From NCBI GenBank assembly GCA_027484055.1, contig JAIXQH010000042.1, positions 1-64,000 on the forward strand: a stretch of DNA of 64,000 bases. Direction: 5' to 3'. Below, piece by piece: positions 5,976 to 15,880 of this stretch; position 1 is the first letter of the stretch, and the number at the start of each line of letters is the position of its first letter. The stretch comes from Verrucomicrobiaceae bacterium (GTDB lineage Bacteria > Verrucomicrobiota > Verrucomicrobiia > Verrucomicrobiales > Akkermansiaceae). A model generated the notes under the pieces. The model was not told the origin of the DNA. It saw only the letters and a list, made by a program, of their open reading frames with translations, and did no database searches. The translations under genes and the position numbers were made by a program.

Positions 5976-6251
5976 TCACAGGCTTGCTTTGAGCACAGAA
6001 GAAGGCTTGAAACCGACCGACTTGGATGCGGCGATTTTCATCGCTTCTCCGGTCTTCGGGTTGCGGCCTTGGCGAGCTGCGCGCTTTTTGACTTCGAATG
6101 TTCCGAAGCCGATGATTTGGACTTTCTTGTCCTTCTTCACGCCTTTGGCGATGGAGGAGAGGACGGCTTCGAGTGCTTCGTCGGCGGAGCGCTTGGTGGC
6201 TTCTTTTCCGAGGGCGGCTTGGATGGCTTCGATCAATTCAGATTTGTTCAT
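5976..6251 (-). CDS. hup: HU-type DNA-binding protein
   Basis: 91 residues from the start MNKSELIEAI, the usual N-terminus and length of HU/IHF proteins. A start 13 codons upstream is less likely. HU proteins are dimers that bend and wrap DNA in the nucleoid. The signature region IIGFGTFEVKKRAARQGRNPKTGE is present, including the Arg-Asn-Pro tip of the DNA-binding beta arm, and the hydrophobic core helices match the family. It stands alone and is followed by a clear terminator 44 bp downstream, which fits a highly expressed monocistronic gene. Assignment to HU rather than IHF is by general similarity. Confidence 0.92.
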   Translation of the reverse strand: MNKSELIEAIQAALGKEATKRSADEALEAVLSSIAKGVKKDKKVQIIGFGTFEVKKRAARQGRNPKTGEAMKIAASKSVGFKPSSVLKASL

Positions 6252-6582
6252 GGCAGGGACGTTTGTGCGAACGTGCTTACGCCTTGGCAAGAGAAAACCT
6301 ATTGAAAATACAGGGATTTTTTCGCATTGGTGGCTTGACTAGTGGCTGGAGAAAAGTGTTATGCGCCGTTTTTTAGAAGGGTTTTGCAATCGCCAGGAAG
6401 GGAAAGGAGGCGCGGGAAAATGACGAAAGGAGTGGTATTTCTCGAAATAATGGAATTTAAGGCCGACTGGAATTAGGGTTCTTTACTCAAAATGACAGCT
6501 CTGGGTGGAGGGAAATCACCGCGAGAAAAGGTTAAATGCGTGGGTGGTAACACAGGGCGACAGGTCGCGGGTTGGAAAACTT

Positions 6583-6611
6583 TTGAGAAATTGTAATTTG
6601 CTGATTATCAG
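6583..6611 (+). promoter_or_regulatory. Candidate sigma-70 type promoter of the atp operon
   Basis: TTGAGA (6583-6588), a 17-bp spacer, then TATCAG (6606-6611); five and four of six positions match the consensus. It is about 100 bp upstream of atpB in the AT-rich part of the leader. A prediction by pattern only. Confidence 0.3.
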
Positions 6612-6625
6612 TCAAATGAATGGGC

Positions 6626-6643
6626 TTGTGAAATTTTTCACAA
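6626..6643. promoter_or_regulatory. CRP/FNR-type palindrome upstream of atpB
   Basis: TTGTGAAATTTTTCACAA is a perfect 18-bp inverted repeat whose core TGTGA-N6-TCACA is identical in form to the E. coli CRP consensus. It is centred about 73 bp before the atpB start and just downstream of the candidate -10 element. If that promoter is real, a protein bound here would more likely repress than activate. Confidence 0.5.
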
Positions 6644-6707
6644 ATAGAACTTGCTGAGGTTAGCGGTGATTCATTATCACCCTCGCCTGCCGTAGCAGGA
6701 ATCTTTC

Positions 6708-7595
6708 ATGCGTTACCTCCTTACCACGCTTGCCCTAAGCTCACTCACTCTGACCTCTGCCTTTGCGGCCGGAGGCGAAGAGCACCACGCGTTACCACTC
6801 TACGCACAGAAGCTCCATGAGTCTCTCCCGATCAGCAACTCAATGGTCATGGTTTGGATTGCGGCACTTGTGATCGTTGTTTTTTGTCGGATGGCGACTG
6901 GGAAGATGTCGCTGATTCCTTCTGGATTGCAGAACTTCGCAGAATGGGCTTTTGAATCCCTTTACAACTTCCTCGAAAGTCTGATGGGCAAACATTTGAC
7001 GCATCGAACATTTTGGTTCTTCGGTTCCATTTTCTTTTTCATCTTAGTGAGTAACTACCTCGGCTTGATCCCAGGTGTCGGCACTGTCGGATGGACTGCG
7101 CTGGATTCACACGGGCATGCTTCTTTCACGCCCTTACTTCGAGGCGCAAACGCAGACATCAACATGACTGCGGCCATGTCATTCAGTTTTGCTCTTCTCT
7201 GGTTTTACTGGGCGCTCACAGAAAACAGCGTGTCAGGCTTCTTCGCACACATTTTTGCTCCCAAAGGTAGCTTCAGTGGAATCATGTTGTTGATGATGGT
7301 GCCGATCTTCCTGTTCGTCGGAGTATTGGAAATGGTTTCCATTGCAATTCGTCCGGTGGCTTTATCTTTCCGATTGTTCGGTAACATTTACGGCGGCGAA
7401 CAAACCTTGGAATCCTTGATGAACTTGGTTCCTAAGAGCATCGCGTTCCTGCCAGCACTACCTTTCTATTTTATGGAGCTTCTTGTGGGCTTCGTCCAAG
7501 CACTCGTGTTCACACTACTGTGTGCGATTTTCCTCAAACTGATCTGTGATCACGGAGATGAGCACCACGAGGCTGGCGACCACGGACATCATTAA
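6708..7595 (+). CDS. atpB: F-type ATP synthase subunit a
   Basis: 295 residues; the membrane stator subunit that forms the proton half-channels next to the c-ring. It begins with a cleavable-looking signal peptide (to TSAFA, residue 20), then several membrane segments. The essential arginine is in SFRLFGNIYGGE (about residue 224), and the helix PFYFMELLVGFVQALVF carries the conserved Glu and Gln. The N-terminus after the signal (GGEEHH) and the C-terminus (CDHGDEHHEAGDHGHH) are histidine-rich. First gene of the atp operon; 74 bp to atpE. Confidence 0.95.
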   Translation: MRYLLTTLALSSLTLTSAFAAGGEEHHALPLYAQKLHESLPISNSMVMVWIAALVIVVFCRMATGKMSLIPSGLQNFAEWAFESLYNFLESLMGKHLTHRTFWFFGSIFFFILVSNYLGLIPGVGTVGWTALDSHGHASFTPLLRGANADINMTAAMSFSFALLWFYWALTENSVSGFFAHIFAPKGSFSGIMLLMMVPIFLFVGVLEMVSIAIRPVALSFRLFGNIYGGEQTLESLMNLVPKSIAFLPALPFYFMELLVGFVQALVFTLLCAIFLKLICDHGDEHHEAGDHGHH

Positions 7596-7669: not shown

Positions 7670-7864
7670 ATGTTCACTAAAGCATTTGCAGTAGCTCTCG
7701 CAGCAGTAGGCGGCGCAATCGGTATCGGTATCCTCGGCTCCAAAGCCGCTGAAGCCACAGGTCGTAACCCAGGCGCAGCGACACCGATTCTCGTTCTTTC
7801 CATCATTCTTGCGGCGCTTATCGAAGGTATCTTCATTCTCTCCGCTTTCGCTGTCCCGTTCTAA
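7670..7864 (+). CDS. atpE: F-type ATP synthase subunit c (short)
   Basis: 64 residues, forming the hairpin that oligomerises into the rotor ring. Helix 1 carries the glycine pattern GGAIGIGILGSKA, the polar loop is GRNPG (31-35), and helix 2 has the ion-binding Glu52 in ALIEGIF. The residue after this Glu is Gly and no Gln is present in helix 1, so the Na+-binding signature is absent and protons are the likely ion. The start is firm because an in-frame TAA lies four codons upstream. It is shorter than common c subunits (about 70-85 residues), mostly at the N-terminus. A strong hairpin follows the stop codon. Confidence 0.95.
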   Translation: MFTKAFAVALAAVGGAIGIGILGSKAAEATGRNPGAATPILVLSIILAALIEGIFILSAFAVPF

Positions 7865-7932: not shown

Positions 7933-8478
7933 ATGATCACCCTACTTGCTTCCACCGCTGCCGAAAATCCAGGTATCTTGGAAAGTATTACATCCACCTT
8001 TGGATTGAACGTTCCGCTGTTCATTGCCCAAGTGGTCAACTTTTTCTTGGTGATCATTGTGTTGAAAAAATTTGCCTTCGGCCCTGTCCAGAAAATGCTT
8101 GAAGAGCGCCGGATCCGCATCGCCGACGGTGAATCGAAGCTGAAGCAAATCGAAAAGCAGCTTGCTGAGTCGGCTACGACCACCGCCGCCGCCATCGCGG
8201 CAGCAAACGCCGAAGCTGTCCGCCTCGTGGAAGAAGCCAAGGCCGGTGCGGCCGCTTTTTCCGAACAAAAATCACAAGAAGCCATCGCGAGCGCCCAGAG
8301 CATCCTCACAAAGGCAGAAGCTGCTGCCAAGGCTGACCGCGACCGTCTCGCGACTGAGTTGAAGCGCGAATTCGGCCGCCTCGTCGCCGCCACCACTTCA
8401 CAGGTGACTGGGAAAATTCTCAATGCGGACGACCAGAAACGCATCAACGAAGACGCACTCGCCAAAGTCGAAGCGTAA
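7933..8478 (+). CDS. atpF: F-type ATP synthase subunit b
   Basis: 181 residues; the peripheral stalk that connects Fo to F1. One N-terminal membrane segment (FIAQVVNFFLVIIVLKKFAF, about 31-50) is followed by the typical PVQKMLEERRIRIADGE and a long Ala/Glu/Lys-rich helix to the C-terminus (GRLVAATTSQVTGKILNADDQKRI), as expected of a dimeric coiled coil. Normal length. It begins 68 bp after atpE, behind the hairpin, and atpH starts 25 bp after its stop. There is a single b gene, with no b' gene in the window. Confidence 0.93.
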   Translation: MITLLASTAAENPGILESITSTFGLNVPLFIAQVVNFFLVIIVLKKFAFGPVQKMLEERRIRIADGESKLKQIEKQLAESATTTAAAIAAANAEAVRLVEEAKAGAAAFSEQKSQEAIASAQSILTKAEAAAKADRDRLATELKREFGRLVAATTSQVTGKILNADDQKRINEDALAKVEA

Positions 8479-8503
8479 GACCCTTTCGTTCCTCCTCCAC
8501 TGT

Positions 8504-8896
8504 ATGAAAATTTCAAAGACTGCCGCCGCTGCTGCTCGTCGCCTATTTGGCCTCTGCGAGACAGACGGTCGCTTTGACGAGACGAAGCTGAAATCCGTAG
8601 TCACTCGTCTCATTGAGGCGAAACCACGCGATTTCAAAGCGATCCTCGCCGCCATTCAGCGCCTGACACGCCTCGAAATCGAGCGTCGCCAAGTGACGGT
8701 GGAAAGCGCAGTTGAAATGGACAGCGCCACCCAAGACCGCGTCGTCTCAGGCTTGGCCAAGCAATATGGTCCAGATCTTGTGATCCAATACCTCATCACT
8801 CCCACCCTCCTTGGCGGCCTCCGCATCCGGGTCGGAAATGATGTGTTCGACGGCTCGGTCAAAGGCCGCCTCGAACGTCTCGCCAACGCCTTCTAA
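8504..8896 (+). CDS. atpH: F-type ATP synthase subunit delta (short)
   Basis: 130 residues from the ATG at 8504, the only start after the atpF stop. The C-terminal half is clearly delta: VTVESAVEMD, then TLLGGLRIRVGNDVFDGSVKGRLERL. The N-terminal part before the first beta strand is about 65 residues, whereas the six-helix domain of standard delta subunits is about 105. An in-frame upstream ATG (8423) lies inside atpF and its 27 extra residues (Lys/Ser/Thr-rich) do not resemble delta. The subunit links the b stalk to the top of F1; a shortened N-domain should alter how it meets the alpha N-termini. Confidence 0.85.
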   Translation: MKISKTAAAAARRLFGLCETDGRFDETKLKSVVTRLIEAKPRDFKAILAAIQRLTRLEIERRQVTVESAVEMDSATQDRVVSGLAKQYGPDLVIQYLITPTLLGGLRIRVGNDVFDGSVKGRLERLANAF

Positions 8897-8933: not shown

Positions 8934-10475
<1,542 letters not shown>

Positions 10476-10579: not shown

Positions 10580-11425
10580 ATGGCCAACCTCCGCGACATC
10601 CGCCGACGCATCAAATCGGTAAAAAACACCGCGCAAATCACCCGCGCGATGCAGCTTGTCGCTGCTGCCAAGATGAAGAAGGCGCAAGACCAAGCGCTTG
10701 CCGGTCGTGAATATTCGAAGCAGCTCAACGGTGTCCTCCAAGACATCAGCGAAGGCTTCAGTGACGCGACACATCCACTTTTGGAAAAACGCGCGGGAGA
10801 TCGTGAGCTCGTTCTGATTATTTCCACGGACAAAGGACTCTGCGGTGCCATCAACACCAACTTGGCTCGCGTCATTCGTAACGAGACCTCCGCCACTGCC
10901 GACTACGTCACCGTGGGTCGCAAGTTACGCATCATGATGGAGAAACAAGGCCGCAAGGTGCTTGCAGATTTCTCGGTGAAAGATCCAGTGCCTTTTGCCG
11001 ATGCACGTGCCATCGCCGCATTGCTTTCCAAGCAATTCCTAGAAGGCAGCTACGATAAGGTCAGCGTCGGCTACACTCGCTTCGTCAACACGATGACACA
11101 GAAGCCAGAAGTCATTCAGCTCCTCCCAGTGATACCTCCGACGGGTTCGGGCGCGGAGGCTGAGACCAACGATTTCCTCTTCGAACCCTCCCCTGTGGAT
11201 GTACTCGGCGCGATTCTGCCGCTGTATGTGAATTTCCTCGTTTTCCAAGCCCTCGTCGAGGCACGCGCTTCCGAGCATTCCGCCCGAATGGTCGCCATGA
11301 AGTCGGCCACCGACAATGCGAAGAAGTTCATCAAGGAACTCACTCTCGATTATAACAAACTCCGCCAAGGTGCCATCACCGCAGAGCTACTCGAAATCAC
11401 GACGGCCATGAAGGCTATGGAATAA
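10580..11425 (+). CDS. atpG: F-type ATP synthase subunit gamma
   Basis: 281 residues, near the usual 285-290. Central rotor shaft of F1. The N-terminus ANLRDIRRRIKSVKNTAQITRAMQLVAAAKM and the C-terminus ATDNAKKFIKELTLDYNKLRQGAITAELLEI are the two long coiled-coil helices and match the family signature; the central STDKGLCGAINTN is the conserved Rossmann-like part. It is followed 20 bp later by a lipoprotein gene rather than by atpD, which is unusual. Confidence 0.96.
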   Translation: MANLRDIRRRIKSVKNTAQITRAMQLVAAAKMKKAQDQALAGREYSKQLNGVLQDISEGFSDATHPLLEKRAGDRELVLIISTDKGLCGAINTNLARVIRNETSATADYVTVGRKLRIMMEKQGRKVLADFSVKDPVPFADARAIAALLSKQFLEGSYDKVSVGYTRFVNTMTQKPEVIQLLPVIPPTGSGAEAETNDFLFEPSPVDVLGAILPLYVNFLVFQALVEARASEHSARMVAMKSATDNAKKFIKELTLDYNKLRQGAITAELLEITTAMKAME

Positions 11426-11954
11426 CTCATTATTTTAATCATCCCATGAAACTTACCTACGCCTTACTCTCGTGTATTTTGCTTTTTCTATCAAGTTGCG
11501 CAACGATCGTATCTTCCAATCAGATCGTCACACGCATTGATAGCTCACCATCGAAGCTGGCTTACAAGGTGAAGGATCATAACGGCTCTGTCGTTTCTGA
11601 AGGCGTCACCCCTTCTAGTGCGACACTCAATCGCTCACCAAGCTACTTCAAGTCCGGGAAATATACTGTCGAGATCAGTAAAAATGGAAAAGTTGTCGCT
11701 ACAGAAACGGTCACGGCTTCCCTGAATGGCTGGTATTTCGGTAATATCCTATTCGGTGGCCTCATCGGAATGCTCATCGTAGATCCCATCTCTGGAGCAA
11801 TGTACCGCATGCCAGAATCAGTAACCGTAAACGCAAGTTCGGTCACCGCGATTGAAAGCCCAAGCAATTCACTTAAAATCGTTGATATTTCTACTCTCAC
11901 CCCGGAACAGCGCAGCAAGCTAGTTCGCATCTAATACTCCGATCACTCATTATT
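11425..11954. repeat. 10-bp direct repeats flanking the gene inserted in the atp operon
   Basis: ACTCATTATT occurs at 11425-11434, at the atpG stop, and again at 11945-11954, just after the lipoprotein gene. A duplication like this could mark an insertion, but a 10-bp match in AT-rich spacers can also arise by chance. Confidence 0.4.
11446..11934 (+). CDS. Lipoprotein of unknown function inside the atp operon
   Basis: 162 residues with a lipoprotein signal peptide and lipobox LSSC (Cys18). The body resembles PEGA-like envelope lipoproteins: a beta-rich part (SGKYTVEISKNGKVVATETVTAS), then NGWYFGNILFGGLIGMLIVDPISGAMYRMPE, a glycine-rich hydrophobic hairpin followed by the 'GAMYRMP' ending seen in many small Gram-negative lipoproteins. 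It lies between atpG (20 bp) and atpD (40 bp) on the same strand, so it must be cotranscribed with F1 genes although it should act in the periplasm or outer membrane. It looks AT-richer than its neighbours. No role in ATP synthesis is known to me. Confidence 0.75.
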   Translation: MKLTYALLSCILLFLSSCATIVSSNQIVTRIDSSPSKLAYKVKDHNGSVVSEGVTPSSATLNRSPSYFKSGKYTVEISKNGKVVATETVTASLNGWYFGNILFGGLIGMLIVDPISGAMYRMPESVTVNASSVTAIESPSNSLKIVDISTLTPEQRSKLVRI

Positions 11955-11956
11955 GA

Positions 11957-13438
<1,482 letters not shown>

Positions 13439-13520: not shown

Positions 13521-13934
13521 ATGCCTCTCCTACTCGACATCGTCACCCCTGAGAAAAAGATTTTCTCCGGCACCGTGGAAAACGTCTATCTCCCAGGAGC
13601 TGACGGAGAAATGGGAATTCTCTCCATGCACGCGGGACTTGTGACCGCTTTGCAGCCTGGAGAACTCCGCTACTTGGTGGATGGAAAAGTGAATGCGTTG
13701 GCCATCGGCTCCGGATTTGCAGAAGTTACTCAGACCAAGGTCATCGTCCTCACGGATAGTGCCCTAGGTGAAGCGGAAATCGACGCGGAACAAGTCGAAG
13801 CCGCCATCAAGCGTGCCCAAGAGAAACTCGCCGCTATCGATCATAACCTAGACGCCGAAGAGGTTGCCTACCTGCAAGGAGTCATCGCGCGTTCCACCGC
13901 TGCTCTGCTCTTCAAGCGGAAAGGGAATCAATGA
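13521..13934 (+). CDS. atpC: F-type ATP synthase subunit epsilon
   Basis: 137 residues. Rotor subunit that contacts the c-ring and can inhibit hydrolysis. The beta-sandwich domain is clear (DIVTPEKKIFSGTVENVYLPGADGEMGILSMHAGLVTALQPGEL) and a C-terminal helical hairpin follows (AEIDAEQVEAAIKRAQEKLAAI). Last gene of the operon, with a strong terminator 30 bp downstream. Confidence 0.95.
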   Translation: MPLLLDIVTPEKKIFSGTVENVYLPGADGEMGILSMHAGLVTALQPGELRYLVDGKVNALAIGSGFAEVTQTKVIVLTDSALGEAEIDAEQVEAAIKRAQEKLAAIDHNLDAEEVAYLQGVIARSTAALLFKRKGNQ

Positions 13935-14032: not shown

Positions 14033-15880
14033 ATGATTTTCTCAAACGAACGCATCACTCGACTCGCTGAGACCATGGCGATTCAGCCGGATGAGTTGGA
14101 AGTGCTCATCGGTCAGGGTAGCACGCATTGCTTCCCCACCGGAGCCTACCTTTTTCATGAATCCATGCCGCGCTTATGGATGGGCATCGTCGAGGAGGGC
14201 GAAATCGAAATCATTCGGGGAAATCATGGCAGCTCCACTCGTCTCGCGACCTTGACGCGTGGCACAGCATTTAGCGAGGGCGTGCTGTTGGATGATCTCC
14301 CGCATTCGGCATCGGCGGTGGCGCTCACGGAGGTAAAAGTCCGGTTAATTCCACGAGAGGTGTTTGAAAAAATCCGGACCGAGCAGCCGGAGGTTTTTTA
14401 CCGTATGGTCGGTCACGTCGCCCGGCGCTTAAGTGCGCGTCTGCGAGCGGCGAACGAGCACCTCGTTTCCGGACGCTCACCCGTCGTCGCGACTTGGCGG
14501 AAAGAGCATGACTCGCTGGGTGAGCGCGAGCTTCCCGACACAGCCTACTACGGAGTGCAGACGCTGCGTGGCATGGAGAATTTTCCCATTTCGGGCATCC
14601 CGCTTCACCACTTCGGGCACTTTGTTCGCAGCTTGGCCTATGTGAAAAAAGCAGCAGCGCGGGCGAACATGGAACTCGGCGTGGTGAAACCAGACCGTGC
14701 TGCCGCGATCATCGCTGCCTGTGACGAGATCATCGCCGGGAAATGGCATGAGCATTTCACCATCGACATGATCCAAGGCGGCGCTGGCACCTCGACCAAC
14801 ATGAATGCCAACGAGGTCATCGCCAACCGCGCGCTCGAAATCCTCGGTCATCGTAAAGGCCAGTACGAATTTCTCCACCCGAACGACGACGTCAACCGCT
14901 CGCAATCCACCAACGACGCCTACCCCACCGCGATCAAGCTGGGCGTCATTCTCACCATGCGCGACGCCACCTCCGCGCTTCGTGAACTCAGGGCGGCCCT
15001 CGCTGCCAAGGCCACTGAATTCGCCGATGTCATCAAAATGGGTCGCACGGAAAATCAGGACGCAGTGCCCATGACCCTCGGACAAGAATTCTCCGCCTAC
15101 GCCTCTTCCATCAAGGACGGCATCCGCTACATCGAGCGTGCGGCAGACGAATTTCTCGACGTGAACATGGGCGCCACCGCCGTCGGCACCGGCATCAACA
15201 GCCCGCCCGGCTATGCGGAACTCTGCACCCGCCACCTCGCGGAAGTCAGTGGACTTCCGGTCCGCCTTGCGGAAAACCTGGTGCAATCCACCCAGGACAG
15301 CGGCTCATTCTCCCTGATGAGTGGTGCGATGAAAACCGCCGCCGTCCAGCTCTCGAAAATCTGCAACGACCTGCGCTGGCTTTCGTCCGGCCCGCGTTGT
15401 GGCCTTTATGAAATCCGGCTCCCAGCCATGCAGCCCGGCTCCTCGATCATGCCCGGCAAGGTGAACCCGGTCATTCCGGAAATGGTCAGCCAAGTTTGTT
15501 ACCAAATCATCGGTGCCGACGTCACCATTTCCATGGCCTGTGAAGCCAGTGAGTTAGAGCTGAACATGGCGGAACCGATCATCGCCTTCAATCTCTTCTT
15601 CGGCCTTACCTTGTTGCGGAATGCCGCCATCGCCCTGCACACCCGCTGCATCTCCGGCATCCAGCCGAACCGCGAACGCTGCCTCGCCTATGTGCAAAAT
15701 TCCATCGGCCTCGTCACCGCGCTCAACCCCGTGCTCGGCTACGAACGCAGCGCCGCCATCGCCAAGGAAGCACTTGCCACCGGTAATAGTGTTTACAGCC
15801 TCGTGCTCGAAAAAGGTTGGCTGAGCAAGGAGCATCTCGACGATTTGCTAACTCCCGAGAAAATGACGAAGCCCCGGTAG
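14033..15880 (+). CDS. aspA: Aspartate ammonia-lyase with N-terminal cNMP-binding-like domain
   Basis: 615 residues; aspartases normally have about 470. Residues 155-615 form a complete aspartase/fumarase enzyme that would convert L-aspartate to fumarate and ammonia: start motif DSLGERELPDTAYYGVQTLRG, GGAGTSTNMNANEV, and the superfamily signature GSSIMPGKVNP near 469-479. Residues 1-145 resemble a cyclic-nucleotide-binding domain of the CRP type (YLFHESMPRLWMGIVEEGEIEII, then AFSEGVLLDDLPHSASAVAL). Its phosphate-binding cassette reads FSE...PHSAS where CRP has GE...RSA, so the phosphate-contacting Arg is missing and the ligand may differ. Fumarase cannot be excluded by eye, but the sequence is closer to AspA. 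A single gene with its own start just after the atp terminator. Confidence 0.85.
   Translation: MIFSNERITRLAETMAIQPDELEVLIGQGSTHCFPTGAYLFHESMPRLWMGIVEEGEIEIIRGNHGSSTRLATLTRGTAFSEGVLLDDLPHSASAVALTEVKVRLIPREVFEKIRTEQPEVFYRMVGHVARRLSARLRAANEHLVSGRSPVVATWRKEHDSLGERELPDTAYYGVQTLRGMENFPISGIPLHHFGHFVRSLAYVKKAAARANMELGVVKPDRAAAIIAACDEIIAGKWHEHFTIDMIQGGAGTSTNMNANEVIANRALEILGHRKGQYEFLHPNDDVNRSQSTNDAYPTAIKLGVILTMRDATSALRELRAALAAKATEFADVIKMGRTENQDAVPMTLGQEFSAYASSIKDGIRYIERAADEFLDVNMGATAVGTGINSPPGYAELCTRHLAEVSGLPVRLAENLVQSTQDSGSFSLMSGAMKTAAVQLSKICNDLRWLSSGPRCGLYEIRLPAMQPGSSIMPGKVNPVIPEMVSQVCYQIIGADVTISMACEASELELNMAEPIIAFNLFFGLTLLRNAAIALHTRCISGIQPNRERCLAYVQNSIGLVTALNPVLGYERSAAIAKEALATGNSVYSLVLEKGWLSKEHLDDLLTPEKMTKPR

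Follow-up and report, generated by a model that had tools for sequence, protein, structure and literature searches.

A probable Rex operator in the leader of the ATP synthase genes of a Verrucomicrobiales bacterium, and its counterparts at respiratory-chain genes

The leader of the ATP synthase (atp) genes in the window – by which we mean the whole 64,000-nucleotide stretch of DNA analysed here – carries a perfect palindrome, and the question it raises is which regulator, if any, reads it. Its core, TGTGA-N6-TCACA, is the site pattern of E. coli CRP, and the first-pass annotation took it for a CRP-type operator through which a CRP/FNR-family factor would tie the atp genes to energy or oxygen status. 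The operator, and the tie with energy and redox state, have stood up; the regulator has changed. The element at 6626–6643 is very probably an operator for Rex, which would repress the atp, nuo and act genes at low NADH/NAD+ and be released by NADH – the binding, the response to NADH and the sense of control (repression rather than activation) being argued from homology and precedent.

The palindrome and the promoter behind it

The perfect palindrome originally described, TGTGAAATTTTTCACA (6627–6642), was borne out and extends to an 18-bp element, TTGTGAAATTTTTCACAA, whose perfect 8-bp arms, TTGTGAAA and TTTCACAA, flank a central TT (Table 1). The element is an exact fit both to the published Rex consensus TTGTGAA-N4-TTCACAA and to the general Rex consensus TTGTGAANNNNTTCACAA, given by Ravcheev et al. 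2012 as quoted in passages of PMC6391272 and PMC5317091.

Might such an element have arisen by chance in an AT-rich leader, as the first-pass annotation allowed? The leader of atpB does have a GC content of 0.44 against 0.57 in the window, and the CRP core by itself is unremarkable there, with one match at up to one mismatch where shuffles lead one to expect 1.44. The 18-bp form, by contrast, is remarkable: in the genome (4.4 Mb in 70 contigs, 95% complete) TTGTGAA-N4-TTCACAA has five exact matches, where base composition predicts about 0.004–0.016, and the reversed control pattern has none; the 16-mer TGTGAAATTTTTCACA occurs five times genome-wide. The element is also conserved. In a first sample of 39 genomes – the source genome and 38 relatives – AtpB was matched in 38, with a readable leader in 37 of these, and across this order the exact operator is present in 29 of the 37 (own included), 64–240 bp upstream of the match, and absent from eight. 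With a genome count so far above expectation, and with this conservation, the probability that the palindrome is fortuitous is negligible, and we rejected that explanation.

At up to two mismatches the genome holds 24 sites – the five exact ones, none with one mismatch and 19 with two – and the reversed control pattern seven; with the one-mismatch class empty and seven control matches once two mismatches are allowed, the exact sites form a class of their own. For ten of the 19 two-mismatch sites the loci were tested against 15 reference proteins (of the respiratory chain, plus polyprenyl synthase, Pgk and RpsL), and because the only site to match was one inside atpB, two-mismatch sites in the source genome are probably chance occurrences.

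Base composition around the operator was tabulated over 118 sites of the order, namely 93 sites minus three (L176, L179 and L202) plus 28 atp sites of relatives. The site is palindromic and its surroundings are asymmetric: the bases at 6624–6625, on its 5' side, are G (0.75) and C (0.78), and its 3' side is mostly A followed by C or T. A second, imperfect palindrome, ATTTGCTGATTATCAGTCAAAT (6596–6617), lies just upstream; a similar stretch is found in one relative (G009) and is, by eye, absent from the leaders of 19 others compared.

Table 1. Features at and behind the operator (positions in the window)
Feature	Position	Strand	Remark
Rex-type operator TTGTGAAATTTTTCACAA	6626–6643	.	64 bp between operator and atpB start codon
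Conserved −35-like element TTGCTG	6651–6656	+	starts at 8th base past the operator
Likely −10 region TTATCAC	6674–6680	+	placed by the A/T-rich columns at +30 to +34
atpB, F0F1 ATP synthase subunit a	6708–7595	+	TIGR01131, E 5.3e-30, above cut-off
atpE-like, c subunit	7670–7864	+	c-subunit-like ORF, by eye; only 64 aa
atpF	7933–8478	+	ORF, named by eye
atpH	8423–8896	+	ORF, named by eye
atpA	8934–10475	+	ORF, named by eye
atpG	10580–11425	+	ORF, named by eye
atpD	11975–13438	+	ORF, named by eye
atpC	13521–13934	+	ORF, named by eye

The same leaders reveal a conserved promoter. TTGC starts 6 to 8 bases after the operator in all 29 operator-bearing atp leaders (at +8 in 26), and CTTGC falls within the following 16 nt in 26 of them, as compared with a mean of 0.4 and a maximum of 3 in shuffled leaders; further downstream, at +30 to +34, the composition over the 118 sites shows an A/T-rich stretch. 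A sigma-70 scan by strict E. coli rules returned no plus-strand promoter in the atpB leader, so the promoter is assigned from conservation alone. From these conserved −35 and −10 elements, transcription of atpB is expected to start at about 6687, probably. Most of 20 other leaders compared show, by eye, no conservation of the candidate −10 proposed earlier, at 6606–6611. A start downstream of 6643 had been taken as an argument against the site; one at about 6687 would indeed lie there, yet what it alters is the geometry, placing the operator centre at about −52, upstream of the −35 element and not over the −10, and the conclusion that the site is an operator is unaffected.

The eight operator-less atp leaders all keep CTTGC within their last 150 nt (counted without a shuffle control), from which it follows that the promoter stands where the operator is absent. 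By eye they also have an A/T-rich box about 17 nt past CTTGC, and three (G006, G016 and G019) carry operator-like letters, with five, four and four mismatches, just before the promoter box.

On the minus strand, a promoter-like match (10 of 12 positions) runs from 6632 to 6604, a single match where shuffles give 0.6; with its −35 within the Rex operator, it faces a divergent HU/IHF-type gene (5976–6290). The genes from atpB to atpC form one co-directional run, presumed to be an operon. Between atpG and atpD lies a plus-strand ORF (11446–11934) for a 162-aa protein, lipoprotein-like by eye and with no Pfam match.

The regulator: CRP/FNR or Rex

A CRP/FNR-family protein – an activator or repressor responsive to cAMP or oxygen that would bind TGTGA-N6-TCACA and control atp – is suggested by the core itself, which equals the E. 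coli pattern, and by four cyclic-nucleotide-domain matches, in three frames of the genome. One short protein weakly matches the CRP model (32.6 bits against a cut-off of 266), and the lyase fusion in the window weakly matches FtrB (26.8 bits against 211), each over the sensor domain. The DNA-binding half tells against such a protein: although the source genome shares the core with E. coli, the CRP-type HTH (PF13545) has no match in it (G000), whereas 14 of 14 control genomes are positive. The 174-aa frame (149 aa scanned) holds the cyclic-nucleotide domain alone, the second frame carries it fused to an aspartate ammonia-lyase-type enzyme and the third is 590 aa long. Nor does the domain follow the operator among relatives. 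At E 0.001 PF13545 has hits in 31 of the 39 genomes, mostly short, partial matches, and in 14 it passes the cut-off, namely in 11 of the 31 operator-bearing and three of the eight operator-less genomes. With neither a CRP-type HTH in the genome nor a tie between CRP domain and operator across relatives, the CRP/FNR reading is very unlikely and was rejected. Where the first-pass annotation called for a CRP/FNR regulator, the genome was found to hold a single rex gene.

The fusion is encoded right after atpC by a 615-aa ORF (14033–15880, plus strand). At its N terminus is a cyclic-nucleotide-binding domain (PF00027, E 6.4e-13), and the remainder is an enzyme of the aspartate ammonia-lyase/fumarase type; a metabolic enzyme thus bears a CRP-like sensor domain, with no match to a DNA-binding domain.

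The one Rex gene of the genome is a 217-aa frame on another contig (C41) and the sole match to PF06971. Its product exceeds the cut-off of the NCBIfam model NF003995 (E 8.8e-71), has both the N-terminal winged-helix domain (PF06971, E 1.7e-18) and the C-terminal Rossmann NAD(H) domain (PF02629, E 2.1e-18), and aligns with eight solved Rex sequences at E values from 3.3e-45 (the best, 5zz5) to 8.6e-37; in the DNA-binding half it reads QLRKDLAYFG where 5zz5 has QIRKDLSYFG. The gene sits 15 bp behind an ORF for a 2-oxoacid dehydrogenase E2, an arrangement shared by 14 of the 29 other loci from the rex search, all 14 of the window's genus. Autoregulation of rex in the source genome was considered and set aside, there being no good operator directly before the gene: the rex locus has one operator match with three mismatches and none better, a GC-rich one that lies about 30 bp upstream of the preceding E2 ORF.

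The resemblance to a CRP site has an explanation in the Rex literature. Passages of PMC2883068 on S. aureus Rex give the consensus TTGTGAAW4TTCACAA, also written TGTGAn6TCACA after earlier work, and it is this second spelling that accounts for the CRP-like look. The 18-bp consensus there is identical to that of the source genome; the targets set out in those passages – fermentation and nitrate/nitrite genes induced without oxygen – differ from the aerobic chain found here (PMC2883068). As a rule for annotation, TGTGA-N6-TCACA in genomes such as this one is to be read as Rex, not CRP.

Targets and mode of control

Searching the genome for the palindrome at promoters, as had been proposed, proved productive: the five exact 18-bp sites precede nuoB, nuoD, nuoG, actA and atpB, and the targets of all five belong to NADH and energy metabolism. 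From gene direction and spacing, the nuoB site would serve nuoB and nuoC, and the nuoD site nuoD and nuoE. The nuoG site would serve nuoG followed by nuoH, I, J, K, L and M-type genes, between which lie two further small ORFs of other kinds (L221, 4299–4700 and 7784–8221, both on the minus strand). The actA site would serve a single run that continues with an ActB-like Fe–S protein, NrfD, ActD, a cytochrome c, and FixO-type and two COX1-type oxidase genes. The actA product is a multihaem cytochrome c (of alternative complex III), named from its gene order with ActD (PF11821, E 2.5e-60) and from a below-cut-off match to the related QrcA.

The targets in relatives are of the same kind. We surveyed 88 non-atp sites from 19 of 30 site-bearing relatives by tblastn against reference proteins, with a hand tally; references past the first five came from the surveyed sites and were assigned with Pfam, NuoF being named by eye and Ndh2 by Pyr_redox_2 plus a below-cut-off NDH2_C match. 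Complex I, NDH-2 or alternative complex III genes follow 82 of the 88 sites. The downstream gene is most often actA (19), nuoB (15), nuoD (13, one of these sites being shared with a divergent ndh2), nuoG (12), nuoF (8), ndh2 (5) or nuoH (4), and less often a nuoM/N-type gene (2), an actE-like cytochrome c gene (2), nuoE (1) or nuoJ (1). Outside the respiratory set there are sites before polyprenyl synthase (2), rpsL (2) and pgk (1), and one unassigned site near a contig end. The rpsL sites are exact, about 100 bp before the gene, in two genomes of one genus (L210 and L215), and the pgk site is exact in another genome (L176); they may mean that ribosomal and glycolytic genes are under redox control, or may be fortuitous.

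Does Rex repress from these sites? An alternative, which we consider unlikely, is that Rex binds and activates atp and nuo, or works in both modes at different promoters. The position of the atp operator, centred at about −52 and upstream of the −35 element, is in itself compatible with activation, and the tight spacing seen in the atp leaders is repeated at the nuo promoters, with TTGC or TTGA at +6 to +8 in 16 of 16 sites at nuoB, 13 of 13 at nuoD and 11 of 13 at nuoG (40 of 42 for the three), and in three of eight at nuoF. The spacing is not general, however, for at 18 of the 20 actA sites neither TTGC nor TTGA begins within 14 nt past the operator; operator position relative to promoters is therefore not fixed. 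Against activation there is also the fact that operator-less leaders hold the same promoter box with, by eye, no obvious replacement site. Finally, S. avermitilis Rex, according to the relevant passages of PMC5355995, directly binds and represses atpIBEFHAGDC and nuoA1–N1 through TTGTGA..TTCAC-type operators, protecting −50 to −22 at atpI and −42 to −16 at nuoA1. The variable position of the operator together with this precedent favours repression by polymerase block over activation.

If Rex acts as a repressor, then at low NADH/NAD+ it would occupy the operator just upstream of the atpB −35 element and hinder RNA polymerase. When NADH accumulates, whether because an electron acceptor is short or because fuel is in excess, NADH-bound Rex would leave the operator, and atpB to atpC would be derepressed together with nuoB–C, nuoD–E, and nuoG and the genes behind it; alternative complex III and the oxidase genes downstream of it would be derepressed in the same response. 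The derepressed chain would return NADH to NAD+ and set up the proton gradient. The CRP/FNR guess would thus give way to a specific wiring in which NADH acts through Rex on ATP synthase, complex I and alternative complex III together. To our knowledge, joint control of these three by one redox sensor is uncommon.

The arrangement has a close described counterpart in S. avermitilis, whose Rex operators likewise stand at atp and nuo. As set out in the same passages, Rex there also controls cydA1B1CD and rex–hemAC1DB, and the operators quoted are imperfect copies (PMC5355995); the source genome, unlike it, has exact sites at atp, three nuo units and the alternative complex III/oxidase genes, and none good before rex. 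The survey by Ravcheev et al. 2012, as reported in papers that cite it, describes Rex control of central and energy metabolism and gives the general consensus that is matched here. What we describe thus belongs to a familiar type, a Rex operator serving a regulon of respiratory-chain genes; for this phylum, our literature search found no description of a Rex regulon. Verrucomicrobiota are not mentioned in the main text of RegPrecise 3.0. For Rex together with alternative complex III, a Caldithrix paper names both, in the passages concerned not as regulator and target, and in a paper on freshwater Verrucomicrobia the word Rex belongs to an author.

Rex and its operator among relatives

Within the 39 genomes of the first sample, Rex was found in 29 and the operator in 31: 29 have both, eight have neither, two have the operator only and none has Rex only (Fisher p 7e-7, kinship ignored). 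The reversed control pattern gave one hit in the 39 (in G011). Eight of the ten genomes with no Rex hit thus have no operator; the other two are G005 (94% complete) and G028 (83%), and their rex genes may lie in missing sequence. In G028 the AtpB leader on one contig is five bases long, and a different contig has a second AtpB fragment with an exact site before it. Two of the eight genomes with neither are themselves incomplete (G020, 59%; G007, 88%), and G012 counts as Rex-positive through a fragment at the end of a contig (E 3.2e-10).

On the best AtpB tree the eight operator-less genomes require four changes, or two if only well-supported branches are counted, the tree being that of one protein and not distinguishing gain from loss. 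An independent-pairs test over well-supported branches gave four pairs, of which two agree and two have no operator difference (p 0.5).

A second sample took in 288 genomes of the phylum, 38 of them of the same order (five, G000, G027, G031, G035 and G038, are in both samples). Within the order, Rex and sites (5–11 per genome) coincide in 15 of 38 genomes, and the other 23 – 22 of one genus, plus G249 – have neither.

We consider it likely that in Verrucomicrobiales Rex co-controls most of aerobic oxidative phosphorylation – complex I, alternative complex III with the oxidase genes, and ATP synthase, joined in relatives by NDH-2 and polyprenyl synthase – as a regulon undescribed in the phylum, and that this circuit has been dropped several times, leaving the promoters behind. 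The drops would have occurred several times within one genus and also in another genus of the family, and some of the promoters left would have decayed operator letters beside them. The joint absence of Rex and operators in close relatives would then offer natural experiments on a chain freed from its NADH gauge.

Beyond the order, the exact site occurs in 11 of 250 genomes, although 160 of the 175 Rex-positive genomes of the second sample (171 of the 175 above cut-off) lie there; more distant Rex proteins thus probably use other operator spellings. Two genomes outside the order (G094 and G199) have a single site about 50 bp upstream of the rex domain match, which ties the motif to Rex independently, and a third, of the same class (G291), has four sites and a Rex hit.

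Named atpB loci extend the picture. Those that score best with the AtpB family of the window come from Akkermansiaceae and other Verrucomicrobiota, and on this ground the source genome is placed in Verrucomicrobiota. Among the best 80, searched up to 500 bp upstream, 20 have an exact site, seven a site with one mismatch, three with two and two with three, and the remaining 48 have none at up to three mismatches. Eight of these 80 are Akkermansia-titled records, with the operator in two and absent from six, and one of the exact sites lies upstream of atpB in Chthoniobacter flavus Ellin428.
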